DNA from: Actinomycetota bacterium | GTDB taxonomy: Bacteria > Actinomycetota > Aquicultoria > Subteraquimicrobiales > Subteraquimicrobiaceae | Assembly (NCBI GenBank): GCA_040755895.1 | Contig: JBFMAG010000046.1 | Location: 1 to 37,353 of the forward strand | DNA: 37,353 nucleotides | Direction: 5' to 3' | Part shown: piece after piece, positions 2,110-16,262 of the stretch | Position numbering within the stretch: position 1 is the first letter of the stretch | Layout: each line of letters opens with the position of its first letter | Position numbers and translations under genes: made by a program | Notes under the pieces: generated by a model | Database searches by the model: none | Told to the model about the DNA's origin: nothing | Seen by the model: only the letters and a program-made list of their open reading frames with translations

Positions 2110-2565
2110 ATGGTGGAGATTGAAGGTTATCAGGTGGAGGAAGGGCTTTACTACACGAAGGATCATGTCTGGGCCAAGGTTGAAGGCGAAAACGTAAGGG
2201 TAGGAGCCGACGATTATGCGGGTAAGACAGCGGGGGAATTTACCTACGTGGACTTGCCCTTTGAGGGGGACGAGGTGGAGCAGGGAGAAACCCTTGCAAA
2301 GGTGCAATCCAGCAAGTGGGTGGGGAAGTTAGCGGCTCCCGTGAGCGGTGAGATTGTCGAGGTGAATGAGGACCTCGACCGCGATGCCTCCCTTTTAAAT
2401 AAAGATCCCTATGGTAAGGGATGGATAGCTCTAATTAAGGCCACAAATCTGGAATCGGAATTAAGGAATTTGATCTCCGGAGATGCTGTGAAGGACTGGA
2501 TGATGGCTGAAGCAGAGAAGGCAGAGAAAGAGGGCTACCGGGAAAAGGCGGAACAAGCCGAGTAA
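2110..2565 (+). CDS. GcvH-like lipoyl carrier protein
   Basis: A lipoyl-domain protein of the glycine-cleavage H family, 151 residues. The hammerhead fold is complete: YTKDHVWAKVEGENVRVG, then GEFTYVDLPFEGDEVEQGE, VQSSKWVGKLAAPVSGEIVEVN and LLNKDPYGKGWIALIK. The lipoylated lysine is K69 in VQSSKW; canonical GcvH usually has VESVKA here, so the local motif is altered. A charged Glu/Lys/Ala tail of about 20 residues follows the domain. ATG 2110 is chosen because AAGGAGG stands just upstream; a longer reading from 2029 runs through the repeat. No glycine-cleavage P or T genes are near. Neighbours are FAD and HdrD-like subunits and lipoate assembly genes, so the protein likely works as a redox arm, comparable in principle to LbpA of sHdr systems. 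Confidence 0.88.
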   Translation: MVEIEGYQVEEGLYYTKDHVWAKVEGENVRVGADDYAGKTAGEFTYVDLPFEGDEVEQGETLAKVQSSKWVGKLAAPVSGEIVEVNEDLDRDASLLNKDPYGKGWIALIKATNLESELRNLISGDAVKDWMMAEAEKAEKEGYREKAEQAE

Positions 2566-2580
2566 ATTGAGGAGGTATCA

Positions 2581-4053
2581 GTGTCACTTTATGAGGCTCT
2601 CTGTCAAATTGTAGGGGAAGATAGCATCTCCAGGGACGAGCTCGATCTCCTTTGTTATTCTCATGATTTGGCACCTCTACCCCAGGAGCTTCTCAAAAGC
2701 TTTGGCATGCTGAATCCGGAAGTCGTAGTCAGACCCCGAAGCACCGAGGAAGTCTCCAGGGTCGTTGAGTACGCAAATAGGGAAAATCTTCCCATTACCC
2801 CCTGGGGGGCAGCGACTTGGTCGCTCGGTGGAGTCCTGCCCATCGAAGGGGGAATAGTCCTCGATCTCTCGGGTCTCAATGAAATTTACGAGTTTAGCCC
2901 CGGGAATGAATATGTACGAGTGGGCGCGGGACTCGTCTGGAAGAGATTGATGGATTTCTTGGGGACCAGAGGGTTTGAGGTGGGCGTGCATCCCACGAGT
3001 GCCCCCTCGGCTACGGTAGGCGGCTTCATCGCCACCGGGGGAGGTTCCGGGGTTGGTGTAACCCAATATGGCTCATTGGGGGACCAGTTGCTCTCCCTCA
3101 AAGTCGTTCTGGCTGACGGCCGGATCATCGATACCGATCCCTGGGATTCGTGGTTCTTCGTGGGAAGCGAAGGCACTCTCGGTATAATCTGCGAAGTCGT
3201 ACTGAAGATATATCCAAAGGGTGAAATGAAGCACTTGATGTATGGATTCGATGCCCTGGATCATGGTGTGGGCTTCCTGCAGTTTTTAAACGGGATAAGA
3301 CCCCATTTCTATTCCTTTTTGGATGAAGAATTCATAAGGTTTTTGAATCAAAAGGAGAAAGATCTGCCGGGAAAAGAGTTAACGGTGGCGGTAACCCTCT
3401 CCGGAACTCCGGAGGAAATAGCGGTATATGAAAAAAAGATCGATGAAGCCTGCCAGGGTGAAAAATATCTTGAGCCTCTTGCGGTCGAAGAATGGGAGGA
3501 GAGGTTCAAAATCGTCTTGAGCCTCAAAAGCTTGGGACCAACCTTCTTCTCCCAGGAGATACGAATCCCCATAAGATTCCTGGGAAAGGTTCTGGTTGAA
3601 TTGAAGGAGCTCCTGAAGAACGAGAGGTATCTCATTGAGGGAGTTGGAGGCGATTTTGGCTCCATACACATCCTTCCCTTAATAATGACGGATGAGAGGA
3701 AGAAGAGTGAGTTTTTCAGGACATTCTCCCTCGCCTCTAGCATCGCCGAAATCGGATACAAATATCATGGTTCTATTTACGGGATTGGACTCTACAATAC
3801 TTCTCATTTGCCCAGGATACATGGGCATTCTCTGAATGTTATGCGAGACATAAAGCACGCCTTTGATCCCAAGCGAATCCTCAACCCCTCCAAGACCACC
3901 CAAATGAGGATCCCGGCCTTTCTCTTTAACGCCGTTCCCAGGATGATGGGCTCAGCTCCAGGGCTCGTCTCAACCTTTCTTAAGGCGGTCAATCTCCTTC
4001 CCGGGAGATTGATCCGTGCGGGCTTAAGACTCATGGGAGGGAAATTGAGATGA
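2581..4053 (+). CDS. GlcD-like FAD-linked oxidoreductase
   Basis: A 490-residue flavoprotein with an N-terminal FAD_binding_4 domain (about residues 40-215) and a C-terminal FAD-oxidase_C domain (about 220-440), as in glycolate oxidase GlcD, D-lactate dehydrogenases and similar 2-hydroxyacid oxidoreductases. Visible FAD motifs are TPWGAATWSLGG, HPTSAPSATVGGFIATGGGS and FFVGSEGTLGI. The C terminus holds HAFDPKRILNPSKTTQ, typical of the family. GTG 2581 follows AGGAGGT, 15 bases after the lipoyl carrier stop, and the gene overlaps the next by four bases (ATGA), so translation is coupled. In known GlcDF or HdrD pairs such a subunit feeds electrons to the CCG protein. The substrate cannot be read from sequence. 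Confidence 0.85.
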   Translation: MSLYEALCQIVGEDSISRDELDLLCYSHDLAPLPQELLKSFGMLNPEVVVRPRSTEEVSRVVEYANRENLPITPWGAATWSLGGVLPIEGGIVLDLSGLNEIYEFSPGNEYVRVGAGLVWKRLMDFLGTRGFEVGVHPTSAPSATVGGFIATGGGSGVGVTQYGSLGDQLLSLKVVLADGRIIDTDPWDSWFFVGSEGTLGIICEVVLKIYPKGEMKHLMYGFDALDHGVGFLQFLNGIRPHFYSFLDEEFIRFLNQKEKDLPGKELTVAVTLSGTPEEIAVYEKKIDEACQGEKYLEPLAVEEWEERFKIVLSLKSLGPTFFSQEIRIPIRFLGKVLVELKELLKNERYLIEGVGGDFGSIHILPLIMTDERKKSEFFRTFSLASSIAEIGYKYHGSIYGIGLYNTSHLPRIHGHSLNVMRDIKHAFDPKRILNPSKTTQMRIPAFLFNAVPRMMGSAPGLVSTFLKAVNLLPGRLIRAGLRLMGGKLR

Positions 4054-5156
4054 GAGAGCATTTGGTCGAGGATGCCTACACCTGTGCCAGTTGTGGGTTC
4101 TGCCGCTTTGGCTGCCCCGTGTACAGGGAGATCGGCTTCGAAGGCGCCTCCGCTCGTGGCAGAATGTATCTCTTGAAGAGGGTTTTTGAGGGAAAATTGG
4201 GCTATACCGAAAGAGTAGTGGATTCATTTTATATGTGTGCTCAGTGCCAGAATTGTAAGCAACTTTGCCCAACGGGAATAGACTTTGGAGAAGACGTTGC
4301 CATTCTTAAGGAGATGTTCGTCCGGGAGGGCAAGCTACCTTCCTACCTCTTTCCATTGAGGGATAACGTAATTGAAAAGGGTAACCCCTTTGGGAAGGAT
4401 GCAGAGGAAAGGGGGGAGTGGTTGCCGGGTAAATATCAGACCCCTGAACCCAGCGAATATCTTTATTTCGCGGGTTGCTCCGCTTCTTATGCATCCACGA
4501 GGATCGCCAAGTCCATCGTTAAAATTTTGGACCAAATCGAATTCGATTTCACCGTTCTGGGCAAGGAGGAGTCCTGTTGTGGCAGCCCGCTGGAGCGGAT
4601 GGGGGAGATCACAAAGGCTGGGGAGCTGATGGAGAAGAATATGGAGAAGTTCAAGGAATTGGGGGTCGAAACGGTTATCGTCTCCTGTGCCGGGTGTTTA
4701 AAGACCTTCACACACTCCTATCCCAAGGACTTCAAAGTACTCCACGTCACCCAATTATTCGATCAGTTGATGAGGGAAGGACGACTTGAGTTCCAAAAGG
4801 AGCTCGATAAAAAGGTCGTTTACTTCGATGGATGCGATATCGGTAGACATTGTGGCATCTACGAAGAGCCAAGGAATATCCTCCGCTCCATCCCCGGCGT
4901 TAAGCTCATTGAATACGAATATTCCCGCGAGGATGCGCTTTGCTGTGGTGGACCTTTAGCCTCGAGCCAACCGGACCTGGCGCATAAGATCGCCTCCAGT
5001 CGGGTAAGAGAAGCTAAGGAACTTGGAGCGGAGATCATCGCCACCGCTTGCCCGACGTGCATGGTTAATCTCAAGGAGGGAGCAAAACTGATCCAGATTG
5101 AGATGGAGATCCAGGATATCCCCATGCTTCTTCCCAAATTTTTAAAGAAGGGATAG
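4050..5156 (+). CDS. HdrD/GlcF-like Fe-S protein with two CCG domains
   Basis: A 368-residue Fe-S protein. Two [4Fe-4S] motifs stand at the N terminus: CASCGFCRFGCP (about residue 12) and CAQCQNCKQLCP (about 62). Two full cysteine-rich CCG domains follow: FAGC, ESCCGSPL and SCAGCLKTF, then FDGC, ALCCGGPL and ACPTCMVNL. In HdrB and HdrD, CCG domains bind non-cubane clusters that cleave or form disulfides. GlcF and LutA share this layout. It overlaps the GlcD-like gene by four bases and lies two genes from the lipoyl carrier, so a role in oxidising or reducing the lipoyl dithiol is the simplest reading. That role is inference. No membrane anchor is seen, so it is probably cytoplasmic. Confidence 0.87.
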   Translation: MREHLVEDAYTCASCGFCRFGCPVYREIGFEGASARGRMYLLKRVFEGKLGYTERVVDSFYMCAQCQNCKQLCPTGIDFGEDVAILKEMFVREGKLPSYLFPLRDNVIEKGNPFGKDAEERGEWLPGKYQTPEPSEYLYFAGCSASYASTRIAKSIVKILDQIEFDFTVLGKEESCCGSPLERMGEITKAGELMEKNMEKFKELGVETVIVSCAGCLKTFTHSYPKDFKVLHVTQLFDQLMREGRLEFQKELDKKVVYFDGCDIGRHCGIYEEPRNILRSIPGVKLIEYEYSREDALCCGGPLASSQPDLAHKIASSRVREAKELGAEIIATACPTCMVNLKEGAKLIQIEMEIQDIPMLLPKFLKKG

Positions 5157-5158
5157 AT

Positions 5159-5950
5159 ATGAGCCAAAAGATGGTGGAGTTCGTGGAGACCGACATCATC
5201 AAAATAAATGGGGAAGCGAGTCTCAAGGACATCTATCGGGAAATCGATGGCTATGAACTCTTCGTGGAACCATTGAGCGCCGAGCAGCCGATAGGTGATT
5301 TCATCTTGGAGGGCGGGTTGGGCTTCAATTCCTTTAAGGAGGGGAGCTTTGGCTCGAAACTCTTCGGTATCAAGGTTTCATCCCCGGCCAAAAGTTTTGA
5401 ATATGGGACGGATTATATGACCCTTTATAATGTGGGCTTTCCCCTTCACAGGATCATGGAGGGGTCTCCTCATCCCGTCTACGACCGGGAATTCGGCAAA
5501 ATCATTCAAGTTACCGTGCCCATTCGCTTGAGAGAAGAGATTGAAGCCCGTTACATCGCCAAGGATGTTGAAGAAATCTTCCCTCCAAAGACGGCGACAA
5601 ATCTCCTTTTTCTCAATGATTTTGGTGCGAGGTTGATCGGGCTCGACAGCCCCGGTTGGGTAGCCACTTATCCCAAAGATTTTCCGGGTGAGGGGAAGTT
5701 GAAGAACGAAATTTGGGAGAAGAGATTTCTCTTGGATCGATTACCGAAGAACCATGGGCTTTTGAATGCATTCAGCCTTCGCAGCGGTTTGGGGGCGATC
5801 TTCAGATCCTTTAAGGGCGTGGAGGGTCTCTTTCTCGCTTTGGTTACCAAGAAGGGTGTGTTGATAAAGATGTCGGGAGAGGAGGCAAGGCTCAAAGATA
5901 TTGAGGGCAAGATCTCCAAAGTTTCGATGCGAACGCTCATCTGGCTATAA
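5159..5950 (+). CDS. Shortened FAD-binding protein (GlcE-like)
   Basis: A 263-residue protein, two bases after the CCG gene. Residues 44-75 (QPIGDFILEGGLGFNSFKEG and onward) resemble the core FAD-binding segment of the FAD_binding_4 family, where GD..AGGGLGxNSxxxG is common. The GlcD-type C-terminal domain is absent, as in GlcE. The rest is not clearly recognised. Position and spacing make it a likely third soluble subunit beside the GlcD-like and CCG proteins. Whether it still binds FAD cannot be told: the usual Pro-Gly-Ala phosphate-binding loop is not evident, and it may be a structural pseudo-FAD subunit. Confidence 0.6.
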   Translation: MSQKMVEFVETDIIKINGEASLKDIYREIDGYELFVEPLSAEQPIGDFILEGGLGFNSFKEGSFGSKLFGIKVSSPAKSFEYGTDYMTLYNVGFPLHRIMEGSPHPVYDREFGKIIQVTVPIRLREEIEARYIAKDVEEIFPPKTATNLLFLNDFGARLIGLDSPGWVATYPKDFPGEGKLKNEIWEKRFLLDRLPKNHGLLNAFSLRSGLGAIFRSFKGVEGLFLALVTKKGVLIKMSGEEARLKDIEGKISKVSMRTLIWL

Positions 5951-6024
5951 TTCTTTGTTTTACGAATGTGTACGAGCAGCCCCTTTCAAGTGTTACCTGT
6001 AAAAAATTAACGGGAGGGTTTAAC

Positions 6025-7662
6025 CTGAACAAATGGCGAGTGCTGGACACAGGAATACGTACAGCGGCTGAAAATATGGCACTGGATGCGGCGATACTGG
6101 AGGCTAAAGCCAAGGACCTCATCCCCAACACCTTGCGCTTTTTGCGGTTTTCCCCTCCTGCCGTTTTGGTTGGCTATCATCAGAGCATAGAGCAGGAGGT
6201 TAGAGTCGATTTCTGTCGCCAAAATGGCATCGACATAAATAGACGAATAACTGGTGGGGGAGCGATATTCTTCGATCCTTCTCAGCTGGGGTGGGAGCTC
6301 ATCGGATCCAAAGAGAGTCTAAATTTCTCGGTTGCCTCGGAGACATTTTTTAGGAAGGTATGTTCAGCCGTTACTTGTGCCTTAAGAAAATTGGGTCTTG
6401 AAGCCTCTTTCCGCCCCAAAAATGACATAGAAATCGAGGGAAGGAAGATTTCCGGTACCGGAGGAACGGAAGAAAGCGGCGCCTTTCTCTTTCAGGGGAC
6501 TTTACTCATGGATTTCGATGTGGAGATGATGTTAAAAGCCCTCAAAATACCGATGGAAAAGCTCAAGGACAAGGAGATAGAATCCGTGAAAGACAGGGTC
6601 ACCTGGTTAAAGCGTGAGTTGGGTTACCTGCCCAGCTTGGGAGAGGTCAAAGGGGCCATAAGGGAGGGTTTTGAGGAGGTATTCCAAGTTGAATTCTTCG
6701 AGGGAAATTTAACCGCGGAAGAAAGGGATTTATTCGAGTGGAAGGTGGATGAATTCCATTCGGACGAGTGGATTCACAAGGTGAGGTATCCCACTCACGA
6801 GAGGCAAATCCTCAAATCAACCTATAGGGCGAAGGGTGGATTGATTAGGGTCACATTGGTGGTAAACACGAGATTCAAAAGGATACAAAGCACCTTGATC
6901 ACCGGGGATTTCTTTGCCTTTCCCAGGAGAACTATCTTTGACCTCGAGGCGGTCTTGAAGGACATCGAGGCCAGTGAGGAGTGTGTGAGAGAAAAGGTTC
7001 TTCATTTCTTCAAGAGTTGGGGTTATAAGGTCCTCGACGTTTCACCGGAGGATTTGATTGAGGTGATTATCGAAGCGTTGAAAAAGATCGATTATCCGCA
7101 ATATGGCATATCCCTCTCAGAGGGGAATGAAATCTTCACGGTGAACGGTACCCTTGAGGAGATACTGAAAAAGGACATTCCCATCCTACTACTTCCCTAT
7201 TGTGCCAAACTTAAGGGGTGCAAGTTTAGATACGAAAAGGATTGCATCGAGTGTGGAAAATGTAGTGTTGGCGAGGCTTACAGGATCGCTAGAGGGAGAG
7301 AGATTGTGCCCATTACCATTGTAAACTTTGAAGATTTGATGGGTACCCTTGAGATGTGTAAAACTCAAGGCATTGAGGCCTTCGTGGGCAGCTGTTGTGA
7401 GGCATTTTATGCCAAACATCGAGAGGACTTTGAGAGGGTGGGACTGCCCGGAATATTGATCGACATCGATAATAATACCTGTTATGACCTGGGTAAAGAG
7501 CAGCAAGCTTATGCCGGGACATTTGAGAATCAAACGCAGTTGAAGTTGGACTTACTCAGAAAGATCCTTTCAAATCTCCAAAGCAAGGATGTGATGGCAT
7601 GTCCACCATGCCTACCGGCAGGCCCGCCTGCCGGACGGATAGGCAAGTCAATGGAGAGTTGA
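6025..7662 (+). CDS. Lipoate-protein ligase LplA-LplB fused to a DUF116 domain
   Basis: Three fused parts. Residues 1-240 are a lipoate-protein ligase catalytic domain: WRVLDTGIRTAAENMALDAA, NRRITGGGAIFFD, then NDIEIEGRKISGTG with the adenylate-binding lysine in GRKISG. Residues about 240-375 resemble the LplB accessory domain. The C-terminal part is DUF116-like, with Cys motifs YCAKLKGC, DCIECGKCSVGEA and SCCEAF and a final TCYDLG. It would activate octanoate or lipoate and load it on the carrier at 2110. No ATG fits. CTG 6025 is chosen because GGGAGGG lies seven bases upstream and the protein then starts just before the family's WRxxDTG; an in-frame GTG at 5968 has no ribosome site. The last 18 or so residues are encoded by a palindromic repeat. 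Confidence 0.82.
   Translation: MNKWRVLDTGIRTAAENMALDAAILEAKAKDLIPNTLRFLRFSPPAVLVGYHQSIEQEVRVDFCRQNGIDINRRITGGGAIFFDPSQLGWELIGSKESLNFSVASETFFRKVCSAVTCALRKLGLEASFRPKNDIEIEGRKISGTGGTEESGAFLFQGTLLMDFDVEMMLKALKIPMEKLKDKEIESVKDRVTWLKRELGYLPSLGEVKGAIREGFEEVFQVEFFEGNLTAEERDLFEWKVDEFHSDEWIHKVRYPTHERQILKSTYRAKGGLIRVTLVVNTRFKRIQSTLITGDFFAFPRRTIFDLEAVLKDIEASEECVREKVLHFFKSWGYKVLDVSPEDLIEVIIEALKKIDYPQYGISLSEGNEIFTVNGTLEEILKKDIPILLLPYCAKLKGCKFRYEKDCIECGKCSVGEAYRIARGREIVPITIVNFEDLMGTLEMCKTQGIEAFVGSCCEAFYAKHREDFERVGLPGILIDIDNNTCYDLGKEQQAYAGTFENQTQLKLDLLRKILSNLQSKDVMACPPCLPAGPPAGRIGKSMES
7609..7645 (+). repeat. Palindromic GC-rich repeat at a gene junction
   Basis: A 37-base element bounded by TGCCTA and TAGGCA with an internal 9-base perfect inverted repeat, CCGGCAGGC (7615-7623) and GCCTGCCGG (7626-7634). 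It forms the end of the ligase gene and lies just before, or within, the start of the next gene. Related copies lie at 8033, 16269 and 27875. Confidence 0.7.
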
Positions 7663-8795
7663 AATACGATTTAGTCGTCGTTGGGGCTGGACCAGCTGGA
7701 AGTACAGCGGCAAAAGTTGCCTGCGAGGAAGGTATAAGCGTCCTCGTGTTGGAGAAAAAGGCGAGTATAGGGAGACCCGTTCAGTGTGGCGAGTTCGTTC
7801 CCAAAGCCCTCTGTAGGGAGGTGGACATTGATAAGCGGTGCATTGCACAAGAAGTCGACATAATGAGGACATATATGCCTGACGGGGGAATCATTGAGAC
7901 GAATTCTCCGGGGTTTATATTGAATAGAGCCCTCTTTGATGAGCTACTGACCATAGAAGCTGCAAAAGCCGGGGCTCACATTCTGCTTCGAACAAAGGTT
8001 ATTTCCATCCGTGGGAGAGGAGTCATCGCCAGACCTGTCTGCCCTGCCCGTCCGGCAGGATGGGATGGTGAGGAGATAAATATAGAAACCAAGGTGGTAA
8101 TCGGTGCCGATGGTCCCATCTCCACCGCCGGTGGCTGGATCGGTCAAGTCAATCGAGAGTTCGTTCGTTGCCTGCAATATGAGATTCCCCTAAACCGGGA
8201 TATTAAAACAACGGAGGTCTACTTCGATCCAAGGTATAGAGCAGGCTACGGTTGGCTTTTTCCCAAAGGTGAGACGGCAAATGTGGGGGTAGGTATTAGA
8301 GTTGGGAGTCGAGCGTCGAGAGTCGAGAGACGAGCATTGAGAGAGGCACTGGAGCACCTTGTTTCGAGGTTGGAGAGGGATGGAAAAATTAAGAGGAGCA
8401 TTTTAAGGGTCAGCAGTGGACTCGTTCCCGTGGGAGGATACTTGAGGAGAACCTGGTGTGGAAATATCCTCCTGGTGGGGGATGCGGCGGGGCAAACGGA
8501 TCCCATCTCTGGGGCGGGAATCCTCTCCGCCATCCTTTGCGGAAAGATCGCCGGAAGAATCGCCGCCATGTCCATAAAGCGGAATGATTTGGGGATTTTA
8601 GAGGAATATGAGGTGGAATGGAAGGACATTCTGCAGAAACCACTGGATAGGGCCCTTAGAAGACGTAAATTCCTGGATGCACATTGGCCCTGCCCTCCAT
8701 CGCTCAACTCATCGACGGATAATGGTGAGAAAGAACTATCGCAACTTTTGAGGGAGAACTGGATCGCGTTCAGAGGATATTATCGTGAAACTTAA
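7659..8795 (+). CDS. Geranylgeranyl-reductase-family FAD protein, LipT-like
   Basis: A 378-residue flavoprotein of the geranylgeranyl reductase family. The N terminus has the FAD dinucleotide motif VVVGAGPAGSTAA. It continues with EKKASIGRPVQCGEFVP, VVIGADGPIS and GNILLVGDAAGQTDPISGAG. Such a gene accompanies lipS1/lipS2 in alternative lipoate clusters, where it was named LipT and suggested to supply electrons; this is my recollection of published work and is not demonstrated here. TTG 7659 (overlap TTGA with the ligase stop) gives MKYDLVVVGAG; in-frame ATGs at 7599 and 7614 would add a repeat-encoded tail. A second palindrome (8033-8066) adds about 11 residues in frame, and 8304-8341 encodes an Arg-rich stretch from a GAGTCGAG repeat. 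Confidence 0.78.
   Translation: MKYDLVVVGAGPAGSTAAKVACEEGISVLVLEKKASIGRPVQCGEFVPKALCREVDIDKRCIAQEVDIMRTYMPDGGIIETNSPGFILNRALFDELLTIEAAKAGAHILLRTKVISIRGRGVIARPVCPARPAGWDGEEINIETKVVIGADGPISTAGGWIGQVNREFVRCLQYEIPLNRDIKTTEVYFDPRYRAGYGWLFPKGETANVGVGIRVGSRASRVERRALREALEHLVSRLERDGKIKRSILRVSSGLVPVGGYLRRTWCGNILLVGDAAGQTDPISGAGILSAILCGKIAGRIAAMSIKRNDLGILEEYEVEWKDILQKPLDRALRRRKFLDAHWPCPPSLNSSTDNGEKELSQLLRENWIAFRGYYRET
8033..8066 (+). repeat. In-frame palindromic repeat inside the LipT-like gene
   Basis: CCTGCC (8043-8048) and GGCAGG (8054-8059) form the core of a GC-rich palindrome that translates as roughly RPVCPARPAGWDG between two predicted beta strands. The reading frame is kept. It belongs to the same family as the copies at 7609, 16269 and 27875. 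Confidence 0.6.
8304..8341 (+). repeat. GAGTCGAG-type repeat inside the LipT-like gene
   Basis: A run of imperfect GAGTCGAG and GTCGAGAG units in frame encodes an Arg/Ser-rich stretch. A similar run lies at 9905-9938, in front of the second radical SAM gene. Confidence 0.5.
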
Positions 8796-9714
8796 GATAA
8801 CGGAACTACTGGAAAATTCGAGGGAGTTATCCTGGCGAAACTTCGGCAGGGAAATTATCTTCTATCTGCCGGGGATGTTTACATTAAATGGAGATCGAGG
8901 CAGGTACCCGGCAATCTCCATCACCGGGGATAGATGCGAACTCAATTGTGATCACTGTCGTGCCCGGATATTAGAGTCCATGATCCATGCCACAACACCC
9001 GAGGCATTGGTGAAGAGGTGCCTAAAGCTAGAAGAACAGGGCAATATCGGCTGTCTGATAAGTGGAGGCAGCTTAAGAGATGGAACCCTACCCTGGCTTA
9101 GATTTGCCGATGCCTTGGCCAGGATAAAGGAGGAGACGAATTTAAAAATCTCCATACATACCGGGTTGATAGATTTTGACACCGCTCAGAGGCTCAAGGA
9201 GGCTGGTGTGGATCAGGCACTCATAGATGTCATAGGAGACGATGAAACCCTCAAGCGCGTATACCATCTGGATGTGGGAATTGAAGCCATAAAGAGTTCA
9301 TTGGATGCCCTGACTACAGTGGGGATTCCAATCGTCCCCCACATCGTCGTTGGATTGTACTATGGCAGAATAAAAGGCGAGCTCGAAGCCTTGGATATGA
9401 TTTCAGGTTACAACCCATCCGTTCTGGTGGTGGTATCTTTGATGCCCTTGTTGGGGACGCCGATGCGGGATGTTGTCTCCCCTCCCCATTCTCAAAAGAT
9501 TGCCGAAATTTTAGCCACCGCTCGCTTGAAAATGCCCAATATTCCAATTTCTCTGGGTTGTGCACGTTCGAGGGGGAGAGATGGCAGCTGGATCGAGACC
9601 ATGGCCGTCGATGCCGGGGTAAACAGAATGGCTTTATGGTCGGAAGAGGCGATCGAGAGGGCAAAGCGGTATGATCTAAAAATCGAATTTCGCAAGACCT
9701 GCTGCTCAATTTAA
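8785..9714 (+). CDS. Radical SAM protein, LipS2-like lipoyl synthase component
   Basis: A 309-residue radical SAM protein. The [4Fe-4S]/SAM motif is CELNCDHC (CxxxCxxC, about residue 52), preceded by YPAISITGDR. A GG-type motif, LISGGSLRDG, lies near residue 91, and a Cys pair (KTCC) stands at the very C terminus and may bind a second cluster. It overlaps the LipT-like gene by 11 bases with a GTG start and GAGG upstream. Paired with the radical SAM gene at 9960 and beside a lipoate ligase, it fits the two-protein lipoyl synthase LipS1/LipS2, which inserts sulfur at C6 and C8 of protein-bound octanoate. Which of the two is S1 or S2 is my tentative assignment. Another lipoyl-related radical SAM role is possible. 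Confidence 0.75.
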   Translation: MKLKITELLENSRELSWRNFGREIIFYLPGMFTLNGDRGRYPAISITGDRCELNCDHCRARILESMIHATTPEALVKRCLKLEEQGNIGCLISGGSLRDGTLPWLRFADALARIKEETNLKISIHTGLIDFDTAQRLKEAGVDQALIDVIGDDETLKRVYHLDVGIEAIKSSLDALTTVGIPIVPHIVVGLYYGRIKGELEALDMISGYNPSVLVVVSLMPLLGTPMRDVVSPPHSQKIAEILATARLKMPNIPISLGCARSRGRDGSWIETMAVDAGVNRMALWSEEAIERAKRYDLKIEFRKTCCSI

Positions 9715-9904
9715 AATCAACTGTCCTTTGGCAAAAATTAGCTCATTAAGCTAAAACATAAACTTGATTTTTAAGACCATGATTTTAATGAAAAATTTAA
9801 AGCATTTTTATCTTTACATTTTGCATTTGAGATAGCAGCATAATAGCATACGAAACCTTAAAGAAGTTCGTATAAAATTTGGCTAAACTAAGTAAAATCA
9901 AAAG

Positions 9905-9938
9905 GAGCCGAGCAGCGAGCGACGAGAGTCGAGAAACG
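9905..9938 (+). repeat. GAGTCGAG-type repeat upstream of the second radical SAM gene
   Basis: The string GCCGAGCAGCGAGCGACGAG followed by AGTCGAGAAACG resembles the repeat at 8304-8341. It lies just upstream of the preferred start of the next gene and creates an artificial N-terminal extension if a TTG at 9879 is used as start. Confidence 0.5.
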
Positions 9939-9959
9939 TATGGAGTGTCGTACATTTCC

Positions 9960-11042
9960 ATGAGTAGGGATAAATCTATGGAGATTGCAAGGACTGATTT
10001 GCGGGGAAAAGAGTTCATAAGGGAGAGTCCAGAATACTTGAGAACGAGCATGGCGGCGGCCATAACTCTCGGTTTCCGTCCCGGACGCTTCTACAGGGAT
10101 GCCAAGTTATCCTGCATCAATCTGCTGATGACTTACTCGGAGGGATGCATGGCCAATTGCGCATATTGTGGCCTTTCCAGGGGACGCTCAGGGGAATTTG
10201 ACCAAAAGAGTTTCATCAGAGTGGATTGGCCGGTTTATGAGCTGGATGAGATAATAACTCGAATCGAGGAACGGAGAGATAGGATCAAGAGGATCTGTGT
10301 CTCCATGATCACAAATCCCAGGGCCACAAGGGATTTGATCACAATCGTCGAGAGAATCAAGGCCCATTTGGATATCCCAATCTCTTTGCTCATTACCCCC
10401 ACAATTCTCGAGGGAAAGGACCTTGTGGAATTTAAGGAAGCGGGGGCGAATATGATAGGTGTGGCTGTGGATGCCGCTACACCGGAGCTCTTTAAGAAAC
10501 ATAGGGGAAGAGGTGTCCGCGGTTTGCACAAATGGGAGACTTATTGGGAGGTGTTCAGGAAGGCTGTGGAAATATTCGGTCTCCGCAGGGTGGGAGTCCA
10601 TCTTATCGTTGGACTGGGTGAAACCGAGAAGGAGATGACTGCCACCATTCAAAGGGTACATGATCTGGGTGGAAGCACCCACTTATTCTCCTTTTATCCC
10701 GAGGTAGGTTCCAGGCTTGAGAATCAATCTCCTCCACCCATGGGTCAGTACAGGAGAATCCAACTTGCGAGATATCTCATAGATGAGGACATAGTCACCT
10801 TTGAGGATTTTATCTTCCATCCAAGGGAGCGGATTGAGGATTTTGGGATATCGGAGGATAGTTTGATGGACATCATCGATACGGGTTTTCCCTTTATGAC
10901 CAGCGGATGCCCAAGTGAGGATGGGGAGGTAGCTTGCAATCGACCATATGGAAATGAACCACCGGGTCCAGGGATAAGGAATTATCCATTTAGGTTGGAA
11001 GGGGAAGACATCGAGCGAGTAAAAAGGGAGTTGTGGAAATGA
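9960..11042 (+). CDS. Radical SAM protein, LipS1-like lipoyl synthase component
   Basis: A 360-residue radical SAM protein in the BioB/LipA-like class. The SAM cluster motif is CMANCAYCGLSRGR (about residue 58). The C-terminal region carries TSGCPSEDGEVACNRPYGNE, whose two cysteines plausibly bind an auxiliary cluster that donates sulfur, as in LipS1-type proteins. ATG 9960 is preferred; the longer reading from TTG 9879 begins with residues encoded by a dispersed repeat. The gene is set off from its partner by an AT-rich spacer of about 240 bases, so it may have its own promoter. With the ligase and the GcvH-like target in the same cluster, de novo lipoylation of that carrier is the most economical role. 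Confidence 0.78.
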   Translation: MSRDKSMEIARTDLRGKEFIRESPEYLRTSMAAAITLGFRPGRFYRDAKLSCINLLMTYSEGCMANCAYCGLSRGRSGEFDQKSFIRVDWPVYELDEIITRIEERRDRIKRICVSMITNPRATRDLITIVERIKAHLDIPISLLITPTILEGKDLVEFKEAGANMIGVAVDAATPELFKKHRGRGVRGLHKWETYWEVFRKAVEIFGLRRVGVHLIVGLGETEKEMTATIQRVHDLGGSTHLFSFYPEVGSRLENQSPPPMGQYRRIQLARYLIDEDIVTFEDFIFHPRERIEDFGISEDSLMDIIDTGFPFMTSGCPSEDGEVACNRPYGNEPPGPGIRNYPFRLEGEDIERVKRELWK

Positions 11043-11240: not shown

Positions 11241-12554
11241 ATGAGACTGAGGACTTTTGAGGGAGGCATCTATCTTCTAGGGAGAAAAGAGGCTACACAA
11301 AACAAGCCCATTGAGGATATCCCCTTGCCACCGGAAGTGGTCATCCCCTTGCACCAGCACGTAGGTCCCCCCTGTGATCCCTTAGTCCAGAAGGGGGATC
11401 GAGTTCTAGTCGGGCAGAAGATAGGGGATACCGATACCTTTATTTCCGCACCAATCCATGCCAGTGTCTCTGGAGAGGTCAAGGCCGTCGAACCCCATCC
11501 CCATTTCACGGGCACAGAGGTTTTGAGTGTGGTTGTAGTCCCCGATGGTGAGCAGGAAGAAGTAAGACTTGAAGTACCAGATCAAGATAAACTCACCCCA
11601 GATCGGGTACGATCCATAGTTAGAGAAGCGGGCATCGTGGGCTTGAGCGGAACGGTCTTTCCCACTCACGTCAAGCTCTCACCTCCGAAGGAGAGCCCCA
11701 TAGAGAGCGTGATCATAAACGGCTGTGAATGTGAACCCTACCTCACCGGCGACTACAGAAGTATGCTCGAATCAACGGAATCCTTGATCGTTGGATTGAA
11801 AATAATCCTGATGACCGTGGGGGCAAAGAAGGGATACTTTGGGATCGGGGTCGATAAAGCCGAGGCCATAAAGAGGATCGAGGATTTAACGGCTCGCGAA
11901 CAAAACATCGAAGTGGTGCCGCTGGACACCAAATATCCCCAGGGTTCGGAGAGGCATTTAATCAAAGCAATTTTGGGAAGGGAGGTTCCGAGGGACGGAG
12001 TGCCCATGGATCTCGGAGTCCTGGTCCAAAATGTCGCCACCACCATTGCCATCACACAAGCTGTGAGGGAAGGAAAACCTCTCGTGGAACGGGTGCTCAC
12101 CGTAACCGGGCCGGGAATAAAAAATCCAAAAAATTTGAGGGTGAAAATCGGCACCTTGGTCAAATATCTCATTGAACAATGCGGGGGATTTGAAGGTGAG
12201 CCTGGGAAGATAATCTTCGGAGGGGTGATGCGAGGGGAGGCCCAATTCAGTTTGGATGTGCCCGTGGTCAAGGGGTCACAGGGCATAGTAGTGCTGCCCA
12301 AAGAGATGGCTGAAGTTTCATCCCCGCGCCCCTGCGTTAGATGTGGTAGGTGCGTGAAGGTGTGTCCGATGTCTTTGATACCTATCTTCATCGTTACTTA
12401 TGTGATGGAGGACAAGATCGATGAGGCAAATGCCGCGGGTGTGCTGGAATGTGTGGAGTGTGGAGCCTGTGGTCTCATCTGTCCAACGGAGATACCCTTC
12501 ATTCAATATATAAGATTTGCCAAGAACATCTTGCTTAAGGAGAGGAAAACCTAA
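11241..12554 (+). CDS. rnfC: Rnf complex subunit C
   Basis: The peripheral NADH/ferredoxin-side subunit of the ion-pumping Rnf complex, 437 residues. The N-terminal barrel-sandwich segment is followed by the NADH/FMN-binding domain with EAGIVGLSGTVFPTHVKL and VIINGCECEPYLTGDYR. Two [4Fe-4S] motifs stand at the C terminus: CVRCGRCVKVCP and CVECGACGLICP. It lacks the long Ala/Lys-rich tail of proteobacterial RnfC. ATG 11241 follows GTGAGGGGAAG. First gene of rnfCDGEAB. Confidence 0.95.
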   Translation: MRLRTFEGGIYLLGRKEATQNKPIEDIPLPPEVVIPLHQHVGPPCDPLVQKGDRVLVGQKIGDTDTFISAPIHASVSGEVKAVEPHPHFTGTEVLSVVVVPDGEQEEVRLEVPDQDKLTPDRVRSIVREAGIVGLSGTVFPTHVKLSPPKESPIESVIINGCECEPYLTGDYRSMLESTESLIVGLKIILMTVGAKKGYFGIGVDKAEAIKRIEDLTAREQNIEVVPLDTKYPQGSERHLIKAILGREVPRDGVPMDLGVLVQNVATTIAITQAVREGKPLVERVLTVTGPGIKNPKNLRVKIGTLVKYLIEQCGGFEGEPGKIIFGGVMRGEAQFSLDVPVVKGSQGIVVLPKEMAEVSSPRPCVRCGRCVKVCPMSLIPIFIVTYVMEDKIDEANAAGVLECVECGACGLICPTEIPFIQYIRFAKNILLKERKT

Positions 12555-12570
12555 GGAGAGAAAGTCCAAC

Positions 12571-13530
12571 ATGGCTCAGGAAGAGCTCGAACTCGTTGTA
12601 TCCGTTCCACCTCATATCCGTGAAAGGGAAGAAGTTTCCCAGATCATGTTCTGGGTTGTCTTAGGCTTGTTGCCTGCAACCCTTGGAGGCATTTACTTCT
12701 TCCACTTTTATGCAATAAAGGTCATCGTACTCTCCATTTTAGCTGCGATTGCAACGGAGGCTTTATTCCAGAAAACCCGAAGGCTACCTACAACCATAAA
12801 CGATGGCAGCGCCATTGTCACCGGTCTTCTTCTGGCTTTATGTCTGCCTCCAAAGGTTCCATGGTGGATTCCCGTGGTCGGTGGATTCATCGCCATCTTT
12901 CTGGGCAAGCAGATATTCGGAGGTCTGGGCTATAATATTTTCAATCCCGCCCTCGTCGCTAGAGCCGTGCTACTCTTATCATGGGCTGAACATATGACCA
13001 AGGATTGGTATACCGCCTTGAAGGTCGACGCCATCGCCAGGGCAAGCCCCTTATTCCTTGCCAAGCAGGTGAAATTGGGTTTATTTCAGGTGGATCTGAC
13101 TCGTTTCTACAAAATTTGCTTATTTGGTAATCCCAGTGGTTGCATCGGCGAAGTTTCAGTGTTGCTCCTTTTAATTGGGGGCGGCATTCTCTTATGGCGA
13201 GAAATCATCGATTGGCGCATTCCCGCGGGTTTTATTGGAAGTGTCGCCGTCCTTTGTCCGCTCTTGGGAATGGATCCGATCTTCCATGTTCTCGCCGGGG
13301 GCTTGATCCTGGGAGCCTTCTTCATGGCCACCGATTACGTGACTTCGCCCATCACCCCCAATGGAAGATTGCTTTTCGGAATAGGTTGTGGTGCCATTAC
13401 CATATTGTTGCGGTCTTACTCTATATTACTCGAGGGTGTGACCTATGCCATTTTATTCATGAATGCATGCACACCCCTGATCGATAAATATATCCAACCC
13501 CGAAGATTCGGAGTTTCGAAAGGGAAATGA
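12571..13530 (+). CDS. rnfD: Rnf complex subunit D
   Basis: An integral membrane subunit of Rnf that carries covalent FMN in known complexes, 319 residues with about eight to nine hydrophobic segments. The motif FMATDYVTSPITPNGRLLFG near the C terminus is the conserved D..TSP region where FMN is attached to Thr. ATG 12571 follows AAGGAGAG; upstream in-frame starts overlap rnfC and are not needed. The next gene overlaps its stop by four bases (ATGA). No ApbE flavin transferase is visible in the window, so it must be encoded elsewhere. Confidence 0.94.
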   Translation: MAQEELELVVSVPPHIREREEVSQIMFWVVLGLLPATLGGIYFFHFYAIKVIVLSILAAIATEALFQKTRRLPTTINDGSAIVTGLLLALCLPPKVPWWIPVVGGFIAIFLGKQIFGGLGYNIFNPALVARAVLLLSWAEHMTKDWYTALKVDAIARASPLFLAKQVKLGLFQVDLTRFYKICLFGNPSGCIGEVSVLLLLIGGGILLWREIIDWRIPAGFIGSVAVLCPLLGMDPIFHVLAGGLILGAFFMATDYVTSPITPNGRLLFGIGCGAITILLRSYSILLEGVTYAILFMNACTPLIDKYIQPRRFGVSKGK

Positions 13531-14084
13531 GGAATATTATAAGACTCGGGGCAACATTAATGATGGTTTGCCTTATAGCGGCCGGTGGTTTGGCTGCTAC
13601 GTATAGCCTTACGGAAGAGAGAATCAAGCTGCAGGAGAGGGAGAAGCAATTCAAGGCGTACATGGAGCTCCTCCCCGGGATAACGAGCACCAAGGATTTC
13701 AAGGAGAGAAAGGATTTGTGCTCCAAGCTCAAGAACGAGTATAAGGATTTGGACAAGGTCTTCGAGGGCTATGTGGAGGGGGAAAGGGTTGGTTTCATCG
13801 TTCAAAAGATACCAAAAGGCTATAAGGGACCAATAAAACTGGCCGTGGGAATAACCGTAAACGGAAAAACGAGTGGAATCGCCGTCATAGAACACAGCGA
13901 GACTCCGGGTTTGGGTGCTAAAATAGAGGAAGCCTCCTTCCAAAAGCAATTCAAGGGGAAATCCCTAAGCGATCCACTCGAGGTGGGAGAGGATATAGAC
14001 GCCATCAGCGGAGCCACTACGTCGTCAAAAGCAGTTACAAATGCGGTCAAAGAAGCGCTTGAGTTATGCGAGAAGATAAAATAA
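13527..14084 (+). CDS. rnfG: Rnf complex subunit G
   Basis: A 185-residue subunit with one N-terminal membrane segment (IIRLGATLMMVCLIAAGGLA) and an extracytoplasmic FMN-binding domain. The flavinylation motif SGATT lies near residues 161-165, with the last Thr as the expected FMN attachment site. The preceding HSETPGLGAKI is the usual companion motif. Translation is coupled to rnfD by ATGA overlap. Confidence 0.94.
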   Translation: MRNIIRLGATLMMVCLIAAGGLAATYSLTEERIKLQEREKQFKAYMELLPGITSTKDFKERKDLCSKLKNEYKDLDKVFEGYVEGERVGFIVQKIPKGYKGPIKLAVGITVNGKTSGIAVIEHSETPGLGAKIEEASFQKQFKGKSLSDPLEVGEDIDAISGATTSSKAVTNAVKEALELCEKIK

Positions 14085-14169
14085 CCCAAAATTTGGTAAA
14101 ATAGGTCACTTGACAATATACAGTGAAGAAATTCTTAAGGTAAGCTTAGATAGTTAAGGGGGCGTGGAT

Positions 14170-14781
14170 ATGAATCAATTGTGGCACGATTTTAAGAGTG
14201 GTATCGTCGCCGAGAATCCCCTCTTGCGATTGATGATCGGGTTGTGCTCAGCCCTAGCCGTGTCCACGCGGGTGGAATACGGCATCTTCATGGGCATCGC
14301 CGCAACCTTCGTCCTATTTTCCTCGAATATCATCATCTCCGCCATTCGGAGATGGACGCCCGATCAGATAAGGATTCCCATATTCATAACCGTGATTGCC
14401 TCCTTCGTGACCATTGTCGATCTGGTGATGAGGGCTTATTTTGTCGCTGTATATGATGTACTCGGAGTCTGGATCCCCTTGATCGTCGTGAACTGCATCA
14501 TTTTGGGGCGAGCTGAAGCCTTTGCCTACAAACATAGCATCGTGCGTTCCGCCGCCGATGGATTGGGGATGGGCGCGGGCTACACGTTCGTGCTCCTGGC
14601 AATGGGCTTCATCAGGGAGTTATCGGGCACGGGCAAGATAATGCTTTTCGGGCAGACCTTGGTGAGTTTGAGCGCTGGCTTTGAGCCTCCATCCATCATG
14701 ATTCTGTTCCCGGGAGCCTTTTTGACCTTCGGTTTTCTCATGGCATTGCTCAATATGTTGCAAGGTAGGAGGAGGAGCTAA
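14170..14781 (+). CDS. rnfE: Rnf complex subunit E
   Basis: A six-helix membrane subunit of Rnf, 203 residues. Visible signatures are NPLLRLMIGLCSALAVST near the start and PLIVVNCIILGRAEAFA in the middle, the latter with the Cys that helps bind the membrane-embedded cluster shared with RnfA. ATG 14170 is chosen over GTG 14164 because AGGGGG at 14157-14162 is better spaced to it. The stop overlaps the rnfA start by one base. Confidence 0.94.
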   Translation: MNQLWHDFKSGIVAENPLLRLMIGLCSALAVSTRVEYGIFMGIAATFVLFSSNIIISAIRRWTPDQIRIPIFITVIASFVTIVDLVMRAYFVAVYDVLGVWIPLIVVNCIILGRAEAFAYKHSIVRSAADGLGMGAGYTFVLLAMGFIRELSGTGKIMLFGQTLVSLSAGFEPPSIMILFPGAFLTFGFLMALLNMLQGRRRS

Positions 14782-15401
14782 TGAGCGAAGCGCAACGTCT
14801 ATTCTTTCTATTCTTAGGAGCCTTACTCATTTATAACATCTTACTCATCCGCTTCATCGCTCTCTGCTCCTTCTTCGGGGTCTCAACCCGGATGACCACA
14901 TCCATCGGGATGGGGTTGGCAGTTATCTTCGTGATGACCATGGCAAGTGCGGTGAGCTGGGTTGTCTGGAATTATGTTTTGGTCCCCCTTCACGTGGGCG
15001 AGTTCCTGTATATTCCAGCCTTCATTTTGGTCATCGCCAGTTTGGTCCAGTTTGAGGAGATGGTCATAAGGAAGATAAGCCCCACGCTCTTTCGAGCCAT
15101 GGGGATTTATCTTCCCCTGATCACCACCAATTGTGCTGTTTTAGCTGCGGCGACGGAGAGCGTAAAACCCGGTTTTCTGAAATTACATATCCCCTACCGG
15201 TTTTCCTTTATCGAATCAATCATTTATACTTTGGGTGTCGCCCTTGGTTACACCATTGTCATCATAATGTTCACGGCGATTAGGGAGAGAATCGAGGGAG
15301 CGCCGATTCCATCCTCCTTTAGAGGCTTTCCCATTGCCTTCATTGTAGCTGCCCTGATGTCCCTGGCTTTCATGGGATTTGCGGGATTGTTTGGATTGTA
15401 A
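14781..15401 (+). CDS. rnfA: Rnf complex subunit A
   Basis: A six-helix membrane subunit homologous to RnfE with inverted topology, 206 residues. NNILL-type start residues (IYNILLIRFIALCSFFGVST) and YLPLITTNCAVLAAA are the two conserved half motifs with cluster-binding cysteines. Starts at ATG 14781 overlapping the rnfE stop (TAATG). A short gap with GGAGGAAAG leads to rnfB. Confidence 0.95.
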   Translation: MSEAQRLFFLFLGALLIYNILLIRFIALCSFFGVSTRMTTSIGMGLAVIFVMTMASAVSWVVWNYVLVPLHVGEFLYIPAFILVIASLVQFEEMVIRKISPTLFRAMGIYLPLITTNCAVLAAATESVKPGFLKLHIPYRFSFIESIIYTLGVALGYTIVIIMFTAIRERIEGAPIPSSFRGFPIAFIVAALMSLAFMGFAGLFGL

Positions 15402-15422
15402 ATAAGATTTGGAGGAAAGACA

Positions 15423-16262
15423 ATGTGGATTATCTTAAAGGCGGCTCTTTCCATGGCGGGATTGGGATTGGGGCTCGGAATTATACTGGGTATAGCCCAT
15501 AAGAAATTCGCCGTGGAAGTTGACCCAAATGTTGAAAAAATACTGGATGTTTTACCTGGAGCGAACTGCGGAGCCTGTGGTTACGCGGGATGCGAGGGAG
15601 CAGCGGAAGCCATAGCCAAAGGAGAGGCTCCCGTTGAAGCCTGTGTCGCTGGTGGACACGAGATTGCAGAGCAGGTAGCTCACATACTGGGAAAGGATGT
15701 ACAAAAGAAGCGCAAGCCCACAGTATCGCTCGTTCATTGCAAAGGCGGTAAATCGAAGGTCTCCCACCGTTATAGATATGATGGTATCCCCAGCTGTAGC
15801 ATGGCCCAGCAAGTGGCTTCAGGATCCCTAATGTGTACCTATGGCTGTCTGGGATTTGGCGATTGCGTGAGGGCTTGCCCCTTTGGCGCCCTATCTTTGG
15901 ATGGGAATTCCATGCCCCAAGTGAATGTGGACAAATGCACGGGATGTGGGCTCTGTGCCAACACATGCCCCAGGAATATCATTTCCTTGGTGCCCAAGGA
16001 TGCTCCTGTAATTGTATTTTGCAATTCGAAGGATAAACCGAGAATCAAGCGGAATATCTGCACCGTGAGTTGCATCGGTTGTAAGGCTTGTGAGAAGGTT
16101 TGTGAGGTTGATGCCGTCGTAGTCCAGAATAATTTGGCCGTCGTGGATTACGAAAAATGCAACGGTTGTGGAAAATGTGTCGAAAAATGCCCCAGAGGCT
16201 GCCTCAATTTTCTTGAGCTCAGCCCCAAGCTTAAGCAGCTGAGTGCCTCTCAAAGCTCATAA
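15423..16262 (+). CDS. rnfB: Rnf complex subunit B (polyferredoxin)
   Basis: The ferredoxin-accepting subunit, 279 residues. An N-terminal membrane helix is followed by the Fe-S domain LPGANCGACGYAGCEGAAEA. Further ferredoxin-type motifs are CTYGCLGFGDCVRACP, CTGCGLCANTCP, CIGCKACEKVC and CNGCGKCVEKCP, so about five clusters in all. The long clostridial-type form of RnfB is indicated. Strong GGAGG site upstream. Last core gene of the operon; a palindromic repeat follows the stop. Confidence 0.95.
   Translation: MWIILKAALSMAGLGLGLGIILGIAHKKFAVEVDPNVEKILDVLPGANCGACGYAGCEGAAEAIAKGEAPVEACVAGGHEIAEQVAHILGKDVQKKRKPTVSLVHCKGGKSKVSHRYRYDGIPSCSMAQQVASGSLMCTYGCLGFGDCVRACPFGALSLDGNSMPQVNVDKCTGCGLCANTCPRNIISLVPKDAPVIVFCNSKDKPRIKRNICTVSCIGCKACEKVCEVDAVVVQNNLAVVDYEKCNGCGKCVEKCPRGCLNFLELSPKLKQLSASQSS

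Follow-up and report, generated by a model that had tools for sequence, protein, structure and literature searches.

A candidate thiol/disulfide electron circuit built on protein-bound lipoamide in an operon of a Subteraquimicrobiaceae bacterium

The window analysed here is a stretch of 37,353 nucleotides that makes up the entire contig JBFMAG010000046.1 (C46) of the genome of a small, uncultured subsurface bacterium of the Actinomycetota, family Subteraquimicrobiaceae (GCA_040755895.1; 1.39 Mb, 97.8% complete). Among named organisms, Ca. Subteraquimicrobium carltonvillense (Actinomycetota) is most closely related to it. Between positions 2110 and 5156 the forward strand, which carries all the window features described below, encodes three proteins in the same direction: a GcvH-like lipoyl carrier, a GlcD-like flavoprotein and a Fer4-CCG-CCG protein (hereafter the CCG protein). 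One operon holds the only lipoyl protein recognised in the genome, the genes for its lipoate assembly and the only CCG enzymes, and the proteins that usually depend on lipoate are absent. This operon may encode a thiol/disulfide electron circuit in which protein-bound lipoamide is the mobile two-electron dithiol carrier between Flx-HdrABC and GlcD-CCG, a reading for which we judge the chances to be evenly balanced. It is supported directly by the gene content, the intact cofactor residues, the lack of other recognisable lipoyl enzymes or of dihydrolipoamide dehydrogenase (E3), and a conserved neighbourhood.

The carrier (2110-2565) has the GcvH fold (Pfam GCV_H, 117 bits), and its lysine K69 (codon 2314-2316; residues numbered from position 2110) aligns with the lipoyl lysine of its relatives; judged by these features, it would be lipoylated in vivo. 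The first-pass annotation of this DNA, made from its letters alone, had placed a lipoyl protein with K69 close to the CCG protein, and this holds, with the GlcD-like gene (2581-4053) alone separating the two. A tree of 42 carriers places the window protein, with moderate support (88/69), in one group with those of loci L048, L114, L046 and L074. True GcvH proteins form a separate clade (100/100), the carriers of GcvH-CCG pairs in sulfate reducers form a group of their own (100/99) apart from the window protein, and the LbpA proteins of sHdr systems likewise exclude it, so that with moderate confidence the window carrier appears not to belong to an LbpA clade.

Absences from the genus were established by targeted profile searches of three congeners, each of which has a single GcvH, namely this carrier. 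For dihydrolipoamide dehydrogenase (TIGR01350, cut-off 409) the own genome scores 46 bits and the congeners at most 107, as against 477-508 for the relatives G003 and G013, which served as positive controls. GltD/Nfn-like, HdrA-fusion, sarcosine-oxidase-like and Thi4-like proteins were considered as an E3 encoded elsewhere in the genome, and none of them is one. GcvP (GDC-P), GcvT (GCV_T), the E2 of 2-oxoacid dehydrogenases and DsrC are all absent from the three congeners. The own genome has no DsrE, in the operon or elsewhere, and the one TusA lies on a contig other than the operon's. The first-pass annotation had seen no E3 in the window, an observation that now extends to the whole genome. 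It had also suggested that the CCG protein works in place of the usual E3; with E2, GcvP and GcvT all missing from the genus, there is no classical E3 task for it to take over, and this part of the proposal is not supported.

The window opens inside an operon, and its first gene is cut at the N-terminus by the contig end. In the congener G001, the gene upstream of this truncated HydB-like gene has 91% identity to the last gene of C112, a further contig of the own genome. When the ends of C112 and C46 are mapped to G001 they lie about 20 bp from each other, which would put the Hdr genes of C112 at the head of the window's operon. By synteny with G001, then, C112 and C46 can be read as one operon split over two contigs. 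C112 contributes HdrC, HdrB (TIGR03288, 303 bits), HdrA, MvhD/FlpD and an FrhB-like Fe-S protein. The HdrA, of 1465 aa (L037:5869-10263), contains an NfnB/GltD-like insertion, whereas G001 encodes two HdrA proteins, of 656 and 1010 aa. The window continues with a HydB/AsrA/FlxB-like 4Fe-4S protein (2-940; NCBIfam sulfhydrogenase beta, 183 bits; Fer4_22), about 30 residues of which fall on C112 if the junction follows G001, and a HydG/AsrB/FlxA-like electron-transfer subunit binding flavin adenine dinucleotide (FAD) and nicotinamide adenine dinucleotide (phosphate) (NAD(P)) (1025-1861; PF00175, PF10418; PRK08345, 264 bits). Judged by families, and not against Desulfovibrio Flx sequences, these genes together correspond to a FlxABCD-HdrABC set. 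The operon would thus run HdrC-HdrB-HdrA-MvhD-FrhB-like, HydB-like, HydG-like, carrier, GlcD-like, CCG, X263, LplAB-DUF116, LipT, LipS1, LipS2, Rnf.

The CCG protein (4050-5156) is matched by PF02754 in two stretches (E 2e-34) and by Fer4_8. Its motifs are complete (C-x32-CC-x35-CxxC and C-x35-CC-x34-CxxC, plus two 4Fe-4S motifs), and all 18 of the 18 cluster cysteines are invariant across 15 relatives, which bears out the first-pass view that both CCG domains are intact. The best NCBIfam match is TfrB, at 193 bits under an equivalog cut-off of 385, and the protein matches both HdrB domains. With an AlphaFold2 model (pLDDT 91.6), Foldseek returns EtfD of M. smegmatis as the best match and closest solved fold (TM 0.85 by query length), followed by LutA and HdrB. 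The only CCG domains in the own genome are the two of this protein and the two of HdrB. Intact CCG motifs were considered as proof of disulfide chemistry and rejected, as a CCG protein beside a catalytic GlcD (locus L088) has them equally intact, and the step from CCG motifs to disulfide handling taken in the first pass does not stand. The idea that the CCG protein is a lipoamide enzyme survives in part: the carrier and CCG genes are recurrently linked and there is no E3, but HdrB is at least as good a lipoamide partner. As to the suggestion that its electrons pass to FAD or NAD(P), a FAD-binding GlcD-like partner adjoins, but HdrB is the likelier link to NAD(P) and ferredoxin; it belongs to the HdrABC/FlxABCD-like set heading the operon, whose Hdr genes on C112 were not visible to that annotation.

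The GlcD-like protein (2581-4053; PF01565, PF02913) has the FAD-binding PCMH domain, as both PF01565 and alignment indicate. Aligned with D-lactate dehydrogenase and LctD, however, its HxGDGNxH site reads GVGGDFGSIH and its GEHGIG site reads SIYGIG, and the histidine that remains is Asn in the congeners. Both motifs are also lost at eight other lipoate-gene loci, mostly archaeal, and most of these motif-less proteins have a (P)YGxGxWN-like motif in common. The standard motifs are retained by the GlcD of L088 and by one GlcD of L106, in the latter as HxGEGNxH (D-to-E). Loss of HxGDGNxH and GEHG makes an ordinary 2-hydroxyacid substrate unlikely, and on these alignments the window protein is no ordinary 2-hydroxyacid dehydrogenase; the clear 2-hydroxyacid substrate that the first pass had named as a refutation is not indicated. 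The next gene, X263 (5159-5950; 263 aa), has no Pfam or NCBIfam match. Alignment of X263 to a GlcD profile (hhalign, probability 85.7) suggests that it is probably GlcE-like, a partial relative of the FAD-binding PCMH fold of GlcD. Its AlphaFold2 model, built from three sequences, is poor, and the Foldseek matches of this low-confidence model to D-lactate dehydrogenase and GlcE are supporting only. X263 was found in 3 of 297 Actinomycetota genomes, all of this genus.

Lipoate assembly genes of the sLpl(AB)-LipS1/LipS2-LipT type are known (PMC10332631), and here all of them stand together in the operon. They comprise LplAB fused to DUF116 (5968-7662, with a start near 6025 suggested by relatives; PF21948, 165 bits; PF01976), a LipT-like FAD oxidoreductase of the geranylgeranyl-reductase family (7599-8795; TIGR02032, 208 bits), LipS1 (8785-9714; NF053742, 221 bits, cut-off 230) and LipS2 (9879-11042; NF053743, 248 bits, cut-off 270). 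The two synthases fall 9 and 22 bits below their NCBIfam equivalog cut-offs, and LipT is called by its family and by a position as in the lipS/lipT clusters of PMC10332631. The DUF116 fusion is an addition to the known set; LplAB fused to the cysteine-rich DUF116 is widely distributed across Desulfobacterota, Chloroflexi and archaea. Downstream lie Rnf genes (RnfC, D, G, E, A, B; 11241-16262), identified from their translations without a family search and probably the ferredoxin:NAD partner; RnfC likewise follows LipS2 in the congener G002. No Rfam families or tRNA genes were found within the window.

The neighbourhood recurs well beyond this genus. A scan of genomes for LplAB-DUF116 gave 80 loci, and a CCG gene is present in 19 of the 24 with a GcvH-like gene compared with 4 of the 56 without one (Fisher p 2e-10, uncorrected for kinship and with contigs of differing length). 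Desulfobacterium TRIP AH-1, of another phylum, has CCG-GcvH-GlcD-CCG-X263-Lpl-LipT-LipS1 together with HdrC-HdrB and LipS2, and this retention of the order GcvH-GlcD-CCG-X263-Lpl-LipT-LipS1 argues that the adjacency of carrier and CCG protein is more than chance. Sulfate reducers have GcvH-CCG-Lpl-LipT-LipS1-LipS2, the archaeal loci L046 and L074 combine HdrA/Flx-like genes with GcvH and lip genes, and in L054, a contig of Bathyarchaeota, genes for Hdr, GlcD, CCG and GcvH stand alongside lip genes.

Several of these loci show arrangements of their own. At seven loci of sulfate reducers and related organisms (L079, L083, L094, L097, L105, L113, L117), GcvH and an HdrD-like CCG protein precede the lipoate genes, some with probable multihaem cytochrome genes upstream of the pair; the sulfate-reducer GcvH-CCG loci are apparently a separate lipoyl-CCG system. 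In Nitrososphaeria-type loci (L068:18590-18988, L072:18576-18992, L086:4681-5073) a GcvH-like protein with Met or Arg replacing the lipoyl lysine lies directly before GlcD-CCG, with a normal GcvH nearby; the lysine-less protein is possibly a structural docking subunit. A small protein that is OsmC/Ohr-like by sequence adjoins the lipoyl carrier in archaea (L046:8941-9378, L068:14965-15417, L086:1863-2303). Ohr-type peroxidases use lipoyl proteins as reductant.

In the proposed circuit, LplAB-DUF116, LipT, LipS1 and LipS2, families whose function is established, would assemble the lipoyl moiety at K69 of the carrier. The lipoyl disulfide/dithiol would then visit two Fe-S enzymes, the HdrB of the HdrABC/FlxABCD-like complex and the CCG protein. 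At the former, electrons of HdrB would be exchanged with NAD(P)H and ferredoxin through bifurcation or confurcation at HdrA, with the adjacent Rnf turning over the ferredoxin. At the latter, the 4Fe-4S clusters would exchange electrons with the FAD bound by the GlcD-like protein, together with the GlcE-like protein, and with an organic substrate, which is probably not an ordinary 2-hydroxyacid. The analogy would be with coenzyme M (CoM-SH) and coenzyme B (CoB-SH) moving between HdrABC and thiol:fumarate reductase, or with DsrC and Flx-Hdr. Lipoylation in vivo, the contacts of the carrier with HdrB and the CCG protein, the direction of electron flow and the substrate are all inferred.

Several points weigh against this circuit. 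Lipoamide has a potential of about -290 mV, compared with about -140 mV for CoM-S-S-CoB, -320 mV for NADH and below -400 mV for ferredoxin. Lipoamide would therefore be a low-potential acceptor, and at standard potentials a bifurcation driven by NADH would have to push electrons uphill to ferredoxin, so that ferredoxin-consuming confurcation is the easier course. The HdrBCA-MetVF enzyme of Sporomusa ovata did not respond to free lipoate or dihydrolipoate (PMC9430772). The lysine-less trios at L068, L072 and L086 show that a GcvH-like fold next to GlcD-CCG can serve without lipoate, and the CCG motifs, as seen above from L088 and EtfD, are not disulfide-specific. At the G002 locus the genes for HdrA and HydB/HydG are incomplete or absent, by assembly error or in reality, and that genome has only a 44% HydG paralogue elsewhere.

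Other explanations were weighed as well. The carrier could be a sulfur carrier as proposed for LbpA, its lipoamide holding sulfane sulfur that Hdr-like proteins oxidise or reduce; the lipoate-assembly genes are the same as those of sHdr systems (PMC10332631, PMC6067878), and the class relative G005 has such a cluster. That cluster (L034) is sHdr-like, with TusA, three DsrE-family, HdrC/HdrB-like, CCG and three GcvH-like genes, and also encodes a coenzyme A-disulfide-reductase-like flavoprotein and lipoate genes. However, the own genome lacks DsrE and DsrC and has its TusA on a different contig, its Hdr set comes with MvhD/Flx modules rather than sHdr partners, and its carrier branches apart from LbpA, and we regard a sulfur-carrying role as unlikely. 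We rate as just as improbable an electron module of the EtfD/LutAB type, in which the CCG, GlcD-like and GlcE-like proteins pass electrons from flavin donors to Hdr or another acceptor and lipoamide reacts with HdrB only. The structural matches to EtfD and LutA fit such a module, as do the CCG domains that HdrB itself possesses, but a CCG protein stays with the carrier and lipoate genes also where no HdrB is seen nearby, as in the GcvH-CCG pairs of sulfate reducers.

Slightly less probable again is an ordinary FAD-dependent dehydrogenase of the lactate/glycolate type that merely lies near a lipoyl gene. The GlcD and GlcF fold families and the GlcE-like third subunit would suit it, but the metal-binding and catalytic motifs are lost, down to the histidine that is Asn in congeners, where L088 and one L106 GlcD keep theirs, and gene order with the carrier and lipoate genes is conserved across phyla. 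Despite the fold and score of GCV_H, we see very little prospect that the carrier is an H-protein or an intermediate in lipoyl transfer to other enzymes: a role in glycine cleavage was rejected with GcvP, GcvT and L-protein missing, the genus has no E2 either, and true GcvH is a separate clade.

Parts of the proposed lipoamide circuit, with its lipoyl/GlcD/CCG/Flx-Hdr combination, have precedents. LbpA of sHdr is an established non-classical lipoyl carrier (PMC6067878), and that system likewise joins a GcvH-like lipoyl protein outside glycine cleavage and dedicated lipoate assembly genes to Hdr-like proteins with CCG domains, whereas the window operon encodes Rnf, a GlcD-like and a GlcE-like protein and MvhD/Flx-like modules, its carrier falls in another branch, and the genome lacks DsrE and DsrC. 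DsrC is the postulated disulfide partner of Flx-Hdr in Desulfovibrio (PMC5296606; see also Ferreira 2023 on FlxABCD-HdrABC/DsrC, as listed in PMC10553843). Here too HdrA, HdrB, HdrC, MvhD/FlpD, FrhB-like, HydB-like and HydG-like proteins are encoded in one operon with a small protein as candidate disulfide carrier, but that carrier would bear lipoamide rather than a cysteine pair, HdrA has its NfnB/GltD-like insert, GlcD-CCG is attached, and the genus lacks DsrC. HdrA-NfnB fusions are known in ANME-1 (PMC9012536), and the HdrA of C112 resembles them in a bacterial host and a lipoyl operon.

In Culexarchaeia the lipoyl disulfide of GcvH was proposed in 2022 as partner of HdrB in an Ehe-HdrA2B2C2-GcvH cluster; that cluster differs in having a membrane hydrogenase, SdhA and CdhA, and the description consulted mentions neither lipoate genes nor GlcD-CCG (PMC9723716). 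Oxidation of CoM-SH/CoB-SH has been proposed for the GlcD-HdrD pairs found in Archaeoglobi, Methanomethyliaceae and Bathyarchaeota (PMC6474303). These likewise combine a FAD-linked GlcD-like protein with a CCG/HdrD-like protein for thiol oxidation, whereas the window system is bacterial and its proposed substrate is a lipoyl protein. No description of the whole combination was found in the literature searched, an absence that is not proof.

Tentatively, and with somewhat less confidence than for the circuit itself, the operon may be a bacterial lipoamide counterpart of the CoM/CoB heterodisulfide cycle of methanogenic archaea. A dedicated lipoyl protein would then be the sole disulfide carrier between a flavin-bifurcating Flx-HdrABC complex and a GlcD-like/CCG oxidoreductase whose substrate specificity would be new. 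The operon would supply its own lipoate assembly, with Rnf downstream, and related versions would occur in Desulfobacterota and archaea. The names lactate dehydrogenase and glycolate dehydrogenase should be avoided when annotating the GlcD-like subfamily defined here. Many non-methanogens possess HdrABC-type bifurcating complexes, and for Culexarchaeia and Asgard archaea their disulfide substrate is stated to be unknown (PMC9723716, PMC11291895); in this organism the entire candidate cycle lies in one operon, with no other recognisable lipoyl enzyme, so that the hypothesis of a lipoyl protein in this role is directly testable.

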